DNA of 42,420 nt from contig JAENYU010000002.1 in assembly GCA_016841625.1 (NCBI GenBank), forward strand, positions 118,431 through 160,850, given 5' to 3'. This document shows positions 17,941 through 21,425 of this stretch, piece after piece (the stretch's first letter is position 1; every line of letters begins with the position of its first letter). Source of the stretch: Methanobacteriota archaeon. Its GTDB lineage: Archaea; Halobacteriota; Methanosarcinia; Methanosarcinales; Methanosarcinaceae. The translations under genes were made by a program, and so were the position numbers. The notes beneath the pieces are model-generated. The model ran no database searches. It was not told where the DNA came from and was given only the letters and a program-made list of their open reading frames with translations.

Positions 17941-17954
17941 GGTAAGTAGTTACC
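17941..17954 (+). promoter_or_regulatory. NrpR operator of glnA
   Basis: GGTA-AGTAGT-TACC is a perfect GGTA-N6-TACC site. In Methanosarcina mazei and Methanococcus NrpR binds this type of palindrome to repress nitrogen genes, relieved by 2-oxoglutarate. It sits immediately downstream of the TATA box and over the predicted start. Confidence 0.8.
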
Positions 17955-17980
17955 GATTGCCTAATGAGGGTGGCATCAAG

Positions 17981-19327
17981 ATGGTTCAAAAGAACAACAT
18001 ACCTAAAACTAAAGAACATGTACTTCAGGCTGTAGTCGAGTGCGACGTGAAATTTATCAGGACCCAGTTTACCGATACACTCGGGATTATCAAAAGCTGG
18101 GCAATTCCCGTTGAACAACTCGAAGAGGCCTTTGAAAACGGAGTCATGTTTGACGGCTCTTCCATTGAAGGATTCACCCGAATCGAAGAATCCGACATGA
18201 AACTCGTACTTGACCCTTCGACCTTCAGGCTTCTCCCCTGGAGGCCCACAACAGGAGGTGTTGCCAGGATTCTCGGAGATGTCTATCTCCCAGACGGAAA
18301 ACCTTTCGAGGGAGACCCGAGATATGTGCTGAAGAGTGCAATCGCAGAAGCCGAAAAAATGGGCTATTCCATGAACGTTGGCCCTGAACTGGAATTCTTC
18401 CTCTTCAAACTTGATGAAAATGGAAACCCCACAACCGAACTGACCGACCATGGTGGGTACTTTGACTTCGCACCCCTGGACAGGGCTCAGGACGTAAGGA
18501 GAGACATTGACTATGCCCTGGAGCACATGGGCTTCCATATCGAGGCATCCCACCATGAAGTCGCCCCTTCCCAGCACGAGATTGACTTCAGGTTCGGGGA
18601 CGTGCTGACCACGGCGGACAATGTGGTCACCTTCAAATACGTGGTCAAGTCCATAGCATACCACAAAGGTTATTATGCAACCTTCATGCCAAAGCCCCTA
18701 TTCGGCGAAAACGGCTCGGGTATGCACACCAACCAGTCCCTCTTCAAAGACGGCAAAAACGTCTTTTATGACCCTGAAACTCCGGACCAGCTTTCCGATG
18801 AGGCAAGATACTACATCGGCGGGTTGATGAAGCACATTAGAGAATTTGCAGCCGTAACAAACCCGGTGGTAAACTCTTATAAGAGGCTCGTCCCAGGGTA
18901 TGAAGCGCCTATTTACGTGACCTGGTCCGCCAGCAACAGGAGTTCCCTTATCAGGATTCCGGCCACCAGAGGCAACGGTACCAGGGTGGAACTCAGGTGC
19001 CCGGACCCGGCCTGCAACCCCTACCTGGCCTTCGCCCTCATGCTGAAAGCCGGAATCCAGGGGATCAAGAACAAGATCGACCCCGGAGAAGCGACCAACG
19101 TCAACATCTTCAAAATGACGGAAAAAGAGCGTGAAGAAAAAGGTATCGTGTCCCTGCCCGGGAGCCTTAAGGAAGCAGTCGACGAGATGAAGCAGAGCAA
19201 ATTCGTAGAGGAAGCCCTCGGGAAACATGTCTTCGAAAACTACCTCTGCTCAAAGACCGCCGAGTGGGACGAGTACAAATCTATTGTTCACCAATGGGAA
19301 CTCGACAAATACCTGTCGATGCTCTGA
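17981..19327 (+). CDS. glnA: Glutamine synthetase type I
   Basis: The preferred start is ATG at 17981, seven bases after GGTGG, giving 448 residues; a TTG 24 bases upstream is unlikely because it lies in the shared leader. It is a full-length GSI: beta-Grasp N-domain (MFDGSSIEGF), then the catalytic domain with GPELEFFLF, NGSGMHTNQSLF (with the metal and glutamate site), the ATP-binding loop, SNRSSLIRIPATRG and RVELRCPDPACNPYLAFA. It converts glutamate, ammonium and ATP to glutamine. In Methanosarcina its activity is controlled by GlnK and 2-oxoglutarate and by small proteins. The usual adenylylation tyrosine motif is not evident near the C-terminus. Confidence 0.96.
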   Translation: MVQKNNIPKTKEHVLQAVVECDVKFIRTQFTDTLGIIKSWAIPVEQLEEAFENGVMFDGSSIEGFTRIEESDMKLVLDPSTFRLLPWRPTTGGVARILGDVYLPDGKPFEGDPRYVLKSAIAEAEKMGYSMNVGPELEFFLFKLDENGNPTTELTDHGGYFDFAPLDRAQDVRRDIDYALEHMGFHIEASHHEVAPSQHEIDFRFGDVLTTADNVVTFKYVVKSIAYHKGYYATFMPKPLFGENGSGMHTNQSLFKDGKNVFYDPETPDQLSDEARYYIGGLMKHIREFAAVTNPVVNSYKRLVPGYEAPIYVTWSASNRSSLIRIPATRGNGTRVELRCPDPACNPYLAFALMLKAGIQGIKNKIDPGEATNVNIFKMTEKEREEKGIVSLPGSLKEAVDEMKQSKFVEEALGKHVFENYLCSKTAEWDEYKSIVHQWELDKYLSML

Positions 19328-19399
19328 GCATTACATAGGGACACATAGTAAAGCACTGGAAATACGACAAAGCATCAGACATCCTCCCGGAACCATTAT

Positions 19400-19493
19400 G
19401 CATGCCTGCCAGAGAAACTCAGGGGAAAGGTTTCCAGAGAAAGATTTATTCTGGAAAATGCTCCTGCCGGAGATCTCTGCCTTGCAGGCATGC
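19400..19493 (+). ncRNA. Candidate structured RNA downstream of glnA
   Basis: GCATGCCTGC (19400-19409) pairs perfectly with GCAGGCATGC (19484-19493); CAGAGA (19410-19415) with TCTCTG (19474-19479), leaving a 4-base bulge. Inside are an 8-bp hairpin TTTCCAGA/TCTGGAAA (19431-19438/19450-19457) and CTCC/GGAG (19461-19464/19469-19472). Four nested, compatible stems in 94 bases are more than chance suggests. Whether it is a free sRNA, a glnA 3' structure or a palindromic repeat is open. No promoter is evident directly upstream. Confidence 0.5.
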
Positions 19494-19505
19494 GTATTTA
19501 CCGGG

Positions 19506-19556
19506 AAAAAATACCCTTCGGAAAAAAGTATCCTTCGGCAAAAAGTATCCTTCGGC
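19506..19556. repeat. 17-bp tandem repeat with CCTTCGG
   Basis: CCTTCGG occurs at 19515, 19532 and 19549, each preceded by an AAAAAGTAT-like stretch. Three copies, 17-base period. Confidence 0.8.
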
Positions 19557-19970
19557 GAAAGCGGAAAAACACACCTTTTACCTCATTTCTAAGTTAAGAT
19601 GAGAAAGTATTCCCTTTAGCTATTTTTTGAGATTTCTTTTCGATGGCAAAAGCCAGCATAGGATTTCACAGCAGGGTTTGCCACAAAAACCCTATGATCC
19701 CTCTACTTTCTTTCGGATCGGGGAAAACGTCTTCAGTCCATTTCCGGAAGGAATTAATTGTTATCGTGACGATCCGGAATTTCCACGGTGCGGATACAGA
19801 GCAAATGACAAGATAAGGAATAAGATCAAAGATTCCGATATCCTTACCACACGAAAGGTAAACCGGCTCGAGAGGGATAAAATAAGGAAAGAAAGTCCTC
19901 TCATCCGGACAAAAAATCAGTCATTTTCGGTACTGCTTCAGGGAAAACATAGGTCAGGAAAAAAGAAACG

Positions 19971-20002
19971 TATATATATTGTTAAATAGGTACTAAATTA
20001 CT
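19971..20002 (+). promoter_or_regulatory. TATA box plus NrpR-like operator
   Basis: TATATATA (19971-19978) is followed after ten bases by GGTA-CTAAAT-TACT (19989-20002), one mismatch from the NrpR consensus. The TATA-to-operator distance is identical to that at glnA. A start near 20001 is predicted, 370 bases before gltB1 and about 60 bases before a small ORF. Confidence 0.65.
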
Positions 20003-20063: not shown

Positions 20064-20252
20064 ATGTTGATGATTATTCACATTAATAACATAATGTACG
20101 CGAAAAGGATTTATGCTACTAATAACCCTCAAAAATCGCAAACGGTGAACTCCCAAGCTCAGTTTTCTTCACCTGCATTTTTTGAAGAAATTTTTAACAA
20201 CGGAACATCAGATTATCAAAAATTTCTGGATTTAAAAAATTTCTGGATTTAA
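20064..20252 (+). CDS. Possible nitrogen-regulated small protein
   Basis: A 62-codon frame follows GGGAGAAAGGC by a suitable distance and lies on the transcript predicted from the NrpR-like promoter. The first 40 residues look ordinary; the end (KFLDLKNFWI) is formed by the downstream 17-bp repeat. Methanosarcina mazei has nitrogen-induced small proteins of about this length (sP36, 61 residues, acts on AmtB and GlnK), but I cannot show homology. It may instead be leader or sRNA sequence. Confidence 0.35.
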   Translation: MLMIIHINNIMYAKRIYATNNPQKSQTVNSQAQFSSPAFFEEIFNNGTSDYQKFLDLKNFWI

Positions 20253-20300
20253 AAAATTTCTGGATTTAAAAAATTTCTGGATTACCAAGAAATTTCCGGG
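20221..20300. repeat. 17-bp tandem repeat upstream of glutamate synthase
   Basis: AATTTCTGGATTTAAAA starts at 20221, 20238, 20255 and 20272, with a degenerate fifth copy. AT-rich; it lies between the promoter at 20.0 kb and the first glutamate synthase gene. Confidence 0.88.
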
Positions 20301-20372
20301 TTTAAAAAATATCCGGATTGTTAAGAAATTTGTTAACATAAAAACATTACGTTCATTTCTAGAGTGATCGAA

Positions 20373-21425
20373 ATGTGTGGAATAATAGGCGTCATAGACA
20401 AGACAAGGTCCAGAATGGACGGGTCAAAAATAAAAGCCGCCCTGAGCCTTATGAATGAAAGAGGCAGTGGAGATGGGGCAGGCTATGCTGCATACGGGAT
20501 TTACCCTGATTATGCAGACTGCTACGCTCTTCATGTTTTTTTTGACAACATGGCAGAACCAAAAACAAAGGTAGAGGAAATCCTCCACTACTGGGGAACG
20601 GTTGTCCATCAGGAAGAAATCCCCACCTTCGAACAACCGGGACTGAAAAGAGTCCACACCCCCTGGAGATATTTCTTCAAACCCTTTGACGACATGATCG
20701 GAGGAAAAGTAGGTTCAGAGAAAGACATCATCAAACATATCGTAATGGAAGTTAACTCTTCGATTGATGGAGCTCTGGTCTTTTCATCAGGCAAGAACAT
20801 GGGAGTCTTCAAGGCTTCCGGCTGGCCCGAAGATGTGGCAAACTTCTACAGGATCGAGGACTACGAAGGCTACATCTGGCTTGCTCACAACCGTTACCCC
20901 ACAAATTCCCCCGGATGGTGGGGAGGAGCACACCCCTTCAACCTTCTCGACTGGTCCGTCGTGCACAACGGGGAAATAACCTCCTACGGCACAAACCAGC
21001 GCTACGTAGAAGGCTACGGGTACAAGTGCACCCTGCTAACGGATACCGAAGTCGTAGCATACCTCTTCGACCTCCTGGGAAGGCAGCACGAGCTTCATAC
21101 GGAAACAGTAGTCAAAGCCCTCGCGCCTCCATTCTGGGACGAAATCGACCGCATGCCCCCTGCCAAAGAGGGACTGTACCGGACAATCCGCATGACCTAC
21201 GGGTCCGCCCTTATGAACGGGCCCTTCGCAATCGTGGTCGCATCGAACGAAGGCATTGTGGGCTTCACGGACAGGATTAAGCTTCGCCCCCTCGTGGTAG
21301 GAGAAAATGGGGACATGCTCTACATATCCAGTGAAGAGTCCGCAATCAGGGTAATTGACCCCGAAGTTAAGAACATCCGCACCCCGCGGGCAGGAGAGCC
21401 CATAATAGGGAGGTTTAACGCATGA
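20373..21425 (+). CDS. Glutamate synthase, glutamine amidotransferase subunit
   Basis: About 350 residues starting MCGIIG, so Cys2 becomes the N-terminal nucleophile after Met removal, as in class II (Ntn) amidotransferases. A GTG at 20364 in frame is rejected because the nucleophile must be near the N-terminus and GAGTGATC is a suitable ribosome site. HNRYPTNSPGWWGGAHPFNLLDWSVVHNGEI is the amidotransferase substrate region. It releases ammonia from glutamine. It is the GltB N-terminal domain encoded separately, overlapping by four bases with the next gene. Confidence 0.93.
   Translation: MCGIIGVIDKTRSRMDGSKIKAALSLMNERGSGDGAGYAAYGIYPDYADCYALHVFFDNMAEPKTKVEEILHYWGTVVHQEEIPTFEQPGLKRVHTPWRYFFKPFDDMIGGKVGSEKDIIKHIVMEVNSSIDGALVFSSGKNMGVFKASGWPEDVANFYRIEDYEGYIWLAHNRYPTNSPGWWGGAHPFNLLDWSVVHNGEITSYGTNQRYVEGYGYKCTLLTDTEVVAYLFDLLGRQHELHTETVVKALAPPFWDEIDRMPPAKEGLYRTIRMTYGSALMNGPFAIVVASNEGIVGFTDRIKLRPLVVGENGDMLYISSEESAIRVIDPEVKNIRTPRAGEPIIGRFNA

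Follow-up and report, generated by a model that had tools for sequence, protein, structure and literature searches.

A conserved long hairpin downstream of glnA in a Methanosarcina-like archaeon, a probable element of the mRNA 3′-untranslated region

Here we describe the region downstream of the glutamine synthetase gene glnA in a 42,420-nucleotide stretch of DNA from a member of the Methanosarcinaceae (GenBank assembly GCA_016841625.1, contig JAENYU010000002.1; hereafter the window), the relevant features of which are collected in Table 1. The start chosen for glnA is presumptive, being an ATG inside the mechanical ORF 17957-19327. The gene product is 81-95% identical to its relatives in the best 16 matches listed (275 residues; Methanosarcina, Methanosarcinaceae and Euryarchaeota records) and, judged by sequence, the genome is Methanosarcina-like. 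The site upstream of glnA, GGTAAGTAGTTACC, is the sole match in the window to the pattern GGTA-N6-TACC, the form of an NrpR operator. The next gene begins with MCGIIG, on the basis of which we presume it to encode a glutamate-synthase amidotransferase-like protein; in 8/8 of the Methanosarcina (g8) loci displayed, out of 27, the gene after glnA is a co-directional MCGII-type ORF. Between the glnA stop at 19327 and the glutamate-synthase-like start lies a gap of ~1 kb, with both genes on the same strand, and the hairpin studied here is found within this gap. Three other sequence features were observed there: GGTACTAAATTACT, a less perfect operator-like match at ~19989-20002 before the glutamate-synthase genes; three tandem AAAAAGTATCCTTCGGC-like units at 19507-19557, directly 3′ of the hairpin and mostly gapped in the alignment with sister genomes; and tandem AAAAAATTTCTGGATTT-like units at 20220-20310 in the glutamate-synthase leader, with similar repeats in the sister genome G003. 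A HEARO RNA (Rfam RF02033, 115 bits) is located elsewhere in the window, at 2730-2985.

Table 1. Coordinates of the features in and around the post-glnA hairpin (window numbering)
Feature	Position	Strand	Basis or remark
NrpR-type operator-like site, GGTAAGTAGTTACC (GGTA-N6-TACC form; motif presumed)	17941..17954	+	upstream of glnA; pattern match
glnA, glutamine synthetase	17981..19327	+	ORF and translation; relatives by translated search
Outermost stem P0, 5′ arm (UCCCGG)	19385..19390	+	MFE fold
Main stem P1, 5′ arm, includes originally predicted 10-bp stem	19397..19409	+	fold
Originally predicted 10-bp stem	19400-19409/19484-19493	+	perfect repeat
6-bp stem, 5′ arm (CAGAGA)	19410..19415	+	fold; CCGG/CCGG pairing instead in sister genomes
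Inner stem P2, 5′ arm (CUCAGGGGA)	19418..19426	+	pairs with 19462-19472; displaces originally predicted 4-bp hairpin
28-nt insertion with most of apical arm	19425..19452	+	alignment placement; absent from three sister genomes
Apical hairpin, 8-9 bp, window-specific	19431..19457	+	pair probabilities 0.89-1.00; 8-bp stem 19431-19438/19450-19457
Originally predicted 4-bp hairpin stem	19461-19464/19469-19472	+	perfect repeat; pair probability 0.00
Inner stem P2, 3′ arm	19462..19472	+	MFE fold
6-bp stem, 3′ arm (UCUCUG)	19474..19479	+	19475-19479 gapped in sister genomes
Main stem P1, 3′ arm	19484..19496	+	fold
UAUUUA beside P1 3′ arm	19495..19500	+	sequence; near site of U run after Methanosarcina hairpins
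Outermost stem P0, 3′ arm (CCGGGA)	19501..19506	+	MFE fold
Second, weaker hairpin with U tracts (U6 at 19623, U4 at 19637)	19582..19640	+	fold and T-run scan
Glutamate-synthase amidotransferase-like ORF, next gene (name presumed)	20364..21425	+	ORF

The minimum free energy (MFE) fold of this region is one long hairpin at 19385-19506, which starts 58 nt past the glnA stop. The original prediction had described a branched RNA of 94 bases in which perfect stems of 10 and 6 bp enclose two hairpins of 8 and 4 bp. All four stems are present as placed, and those of 10, 6 and 8 bp have pair probabilities of at least 0.89 (the 10-bp stem begins 73 nt past the stop), but the branching does not hold. In the predicted fold the 4-bp hairpin gives way to pairing of CUC (19418-19420) with GAG (19470-19472). 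The branched three-way structure was rejected on this pair probability and on energy: over these 94 nt it scores -37.4 kcal/mol, which is 5.5 kcal/mol worse than the unbranched alternative at -42.9 kcal/mol. The stem also reaches beyond the predicted ends, through the full length of P1 to the outer P0 pairing. The segment 19380-19508 has an MFE of -58.4 kcal/mol (z -6.13, 0/200 shuffles) and the shorter 19390-19503 one of -47.3 kcal/mol (z -5.27, 0/200 shuffles). The background was 16,212 intergenic 114-nt windows from both strands of 440 kb of this genome, made up of the window and 20 further stretches. Eight of these equal the MFE of a 114-nt window begun at 19390 or 19395, and 14 or 10, respectively, do so after GC correction; for one begun at 19380 the numbers are 22 and 56. 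The element itself fell outside the background set, presumably via its overlap with the mechanical ORF 19227-19592, and was scored separately. The top-ranked background fold overlaps the HEARO element noted above and lies on the other strand from that of the Rfam match.

Four genomes, including that of the window, make up the comparison within the genus. The long rod is present in all four, with lengths of 97, 97 and 96 nt in the three sister genomes and z-scores there of -5.28, -5.68 and -5.56 (0/200 shuffles each, as in the window). Relative to the sisters the window contains two extra pieces, of 28 nt and 5 nt (19475-19479), and the sisters are without the 8-bp arm. An origin of the 28-nt insertion by tandem duplication was considered but is not supported, a local alignment between a pair of short segments having matched no more than 5 bases. 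In the genus alignment (A2) 91.7% of cells are paired, versus 25-49% in slid controls, and the P0 pair at columns 9-124 reads C-G twice and A-U once and is unpaired in the remaining sequence. Covariation within the genus is not significant, with one pair changed on both sides and 249 of 500 shuffles performing as well; with four such close sequences it therefore cannot be proven at this level. The fold is kept in 4/4 genomes, and two-sided changes occur in a hairpin at the matching place in Methanosarcina.

That hairpin, of ~9 bp with a short loop, is found ~60-140 nt after the glnA stop in Methanosarcina, for which 27 glnA loci were available from 30 genomes (3/30 gave no glnA match). Alignment A1 comprises 12 of 16 Methanosarcina-type loci, omitting L043, L045, L046 and L068, in which the hairpin was judged absent or degenerate. 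Within A1 the hairpin is followed by UUU or longer in 12/12 sequences and by UUUU or longer in 7/12, two-sided changes occur in 6/9 pairs (1/500 shuffles) and the covariation score is 0.343 (0/500). A set of 23 model-fitted sequences gave a covariation score of 0.415 (0/500), six pairs with two-sided changes (reached by 21/500) and 24 cells with such changes versus 9.0 in shuffles (0/500), figures to be read in the light of model fitting leaning towards structure and of kin sequences being able to beat shuffles without it; slid controls were lower in both sets. Searching 111 genomes of the family with the resulting model, R1, at E≤0.1 and with stricter filters returned one match in each of 19 genomes, 11 of them in the model and eight not (G103, G104, G105, G106, G108, G110, G111 and G128). 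Matches were found only at glnA, with the gene just upstream on the same strand at 19/19 loci, and in eight genomes that had supplied sequences to the model the next-best R1 locus had an E value of 1.9 or worse. At the 27 Methanosarcina glnA loci, R1 matched 23 at E≤1 (L150 weakly, E 0.91) and 22 at E≤0.023, and left L143, L154, L160 and L169 unmatched. A TATA-like string similar to TATAAAAATGCTTTCC was seen ~120-250 nt after glnA in L033, L034, L036, L039, L041, L042, L044 and L046. Among 19 loci of Methanolobus and its neighbours, several have a weak GCAGC/GCUGC-like hairpin after glnA, but only six (L052, L057, L058, L059, L064 and L065) pass at the level of 5/100 shuffles, so it is given no weight here.

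Hairpins after genes are common in these genomes. The test covered mechanical ORFs with 150 or more codons and no other such ORF in the 190 nt after them. In the Methanosarcina genome G104, 130 of 136 were tested and 25 passed the 5% shuffle level; in the window's own genome (G000), 90 of 139 were tested and 15 passed. Post-gene hairpins therefore exceed chance expectation three- to fourfold. The glnA hairpin is a well conserved case of this ordinary class. A 46-nt hairpin test at glnA was passed by 16/27 Methanosarcina sequences (11/27 failed) and by one of the four in the window's genus; the failing sequences there were the window, G003 and G002 (39, 21 and 29 of 100 shuffles), the window failing because the arms of its rod are more than 46 nt apart.

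The outer stem of 19385-19506 most likely corresponds to the short Methanosarcina hairpin. With filters off, R1 leaves the element unmatched in the window and in L028, L029, L030 and L143, and it has no match at glnA of the four genus genomes; as the model misses the rod, the case for homology of the two forms is made from position, from arm similarity (GAUAUGCCUGCCGGCAGGCAUAUC in L061, GCAUGCCUGC...GCAGGCAUGC in the window) and from G121 (L143). This g8 genome has the 5′ flank common to the window's genus and pairs GUACCUGCC with GGCAGGUAC around a ~70-nt loop that holds a further hairpin, an arrangement that is possibly intermediate between the two forms; its fold as a whole is not significant (z -1.69, 12/200 shuffles). 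From these three lines we infer that the rod is an expanded Methanosarcina hairpin, the loop of which would have grown into a long rod in the window's genus, with the 28-nt arm added in this species (or lost in others).

A separate hairpin was observed in the gap between glnA and the glutamate-synthase genes at 15 loci of Methanolobus, Methanomethylovorans and the like (L047-L049, L052, L054-L056, L058-L060 and L063-L067; for example L048:3953-3976), with an invariant TTGCATGGTT in its loop. Two-sided changes occur in 6/6 of its pairs and 74% of cells are paired, the best of all slides; the covariation score was reached by 19/500 shuffles and the pair number by 59/500, and RNAalifold predicted from the same alignment a different, 4-pair hairpin and not the one with the TTGCATGGTT loop. 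A model of this hairpin matched 49/111 family genomes at E≤0.1, most strongly in g5 and g14, which include its source genomes. Weak matches occur in other genera, including g8 and the sister genome G002 (E 0.001), and the one that was examined, L251, failed. The motif stands 61-79 nt before the MCGIIG start in 29/30 loci, with glnA recognised within 900 nt upstream in 22/29. No Rfam match to it was obtained at four leader loci, and TTGCATGGTT is absent from the window. This hairpin is a candidate for a leader RNA in nitrogen assimilation, and it is perhaps more interesting than the post-glnA element.

Taken as a whole, the element at 19385-19506 is probably a structured part of the glnA mRNA 3′-UTR that helps to set or protect its 3′ end, as opposed to a separate branched RNA. 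Of the three options offered originally (a small RNA, a 3′ processing structure or a palindromic repeat) the second comes closest to this. Once RNA polymerase had passed the end of glnA it would transcribe the hairpin. The hairpin would help to define the 3′ end of the transcript, either through pausing and termination at the U run or as an end left by cleavage at that place, and would then hinder 3′-5′ decay; glnA would thereby be separated from the co-directional glutamate-synthase genes downstream. We infer both that the element is transcribed and that it has a role in termination or protection. The position of the Methanosarcina hairpin and its U run past the stop fits a 3′-end element. 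In the window no run of at least four U directly follows the stem, where there is UAUUUA only, and the first U4 is at 19576. The hairpin with U tracts at 19582-19640 is a candidate main terminator and, given the weak U run beside the rod together with these distal tracts, termination in the window may be less important than protecting an end that lies upstream or arises by processing.

Published Term-seq work describes archaeal 3′ ends as U-rich and reports, for M. mazei, some folding potential upstream of the ends and a median 3′-UTR of 85 nt (PMC7237163, PMC8716108). A hairpin is described as not strictly necessary for termination in archaea (PMC8716108), and a single H. volcanii hairpin of coding-region origin is reported to have terminated 59% of transcripts (PMC7237163, PMC8716108). 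The glnA hairpin resembles S12 of H. volcanii and the M. mazei cases in lying near a mapped or expected 3′ end, and that of Methanosarcina also has a short U run after it; S12 differs in its location in a coding region, whereas the window element is a longer rod, its U run is poor and its effect on termination is putative. Bacterial intrinsic terminators are similar in that a hairpin follows the gene, with a U run in Methanosarcina, but the window lacks such a run directly after the stem. The glnA RNA and related glutamine riboswitches, which are bacterial leaders, are likewise linked to glutamine synthetase or nitrogen genes, whereas the window element lies 3′ of glnA and has no Rfam match at threshold. 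Titles and abstract openings of the open-licence papers listed contained no report of a glnA 3′-UTR structure in Methanosarcina.

Among the alternatives, the hairpin could be a regulatory target to which a trans-acting sRNA (for example sRNA154) or a protein binds, tying glnA mRNA stability to nitrogen supply, although this is unlikely. sRNA154 is reported to stabilise glnA1 mRNA in M. mazei, levels being 3.8-fold lower in a deletion and 19.6-fold lower in a knockdown (PMC11549558), and glnA1 is described as controlled by the repressor NrpR and the small protein sP26 (PMC11456600). The NrpR-type operator at glnA, the single copy of the element and the restriction of the Methanosarcina hairpin to glnA at E≤0.1 are in keeping with such a target, whereas loops and inserts vary between species and sRNA154 itself was not located by a published-primer pattern in 30 genomes (12 matches, all with 2 mismatches, versus 8 for a reversed control, and none with the second primer site nearby). 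The likeness to sRNA154 and other Methanosarcina sRNAs is one of nitrogen-metabolism context, and the element differs in standing in cis, after glnA. That the rod is instead a 3′-UTR-derived or independent small RNA, accumulating and acting elsewhere, seems to us quite doubtful. Its very stable fold and the existence of papers on Methanosarcina sRNAs would suit this, yet the sister genomes keep the pairing while differing by inserts, no promoter was seen by eye between 19327 and 19385, and there is no Rfam match at threshold. The original prediction had been unable to match the element to a known family, and this stands for Rfam 15, with nothing at gathering score in the window's element or at five related loci (L028, L030, L143, L146 and L156); relaxing the search to E values up to 5 gave a sole match, sub-threshold and elsewhere, at 19596-19632.

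We give a similarly small chance to a palindrome of little or no function drifting between two operons, which the non-significant covariation within the genus, the large indels and the frequency of hairpins after genes would favour, and against which stand the significant fold in 4/4 genomes and the covariation at the matching place in Methanosarcina. A small protein is very improbable: in the window, reading from ATG 19398 meets no stop across the element, and the frame is open over shorter lengths in G003 and G002, but lengths and sequences diverge and the G001 frame starts with GTG and stops after 14 residues, so the frame is not kept in all four genomes and this candidate was rejected. Least credible is a dispersed palindromic repeat or small mobile element, to which the 10-bp perfect inverted ends might point. 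A whole-genome search found one full copy, the element itself being the sole strong match; the 23 others were of 14-33 nt with E values of 0.13 or worse, the next matches (E 0.13) spanning 17-31 nt. There was no match in a plasmid collection. Each of the three sister genomes carries the outer stem at this position, with no empty site among them, and the palindromic-repeat option of the original prediction is refuted.

A broader proposal, in which a glnA-specific 3′-UTR element of the Methanosarcinaceae couples mRNA lifetime to nitrogen status via an sRNA or protein, and clade-specific growth of the loop adds binding arms, is rather unlikely. A covarying, gene-specific hairpin after glnA would offer a ready target in cis for the mRNA-stabilising step of the sRNA. 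In archaea, where termination is reported not to require hairpins (PMC8716108), the glnA hairpin also offers a means of testing whether such structures influence the ends of mRNAs.
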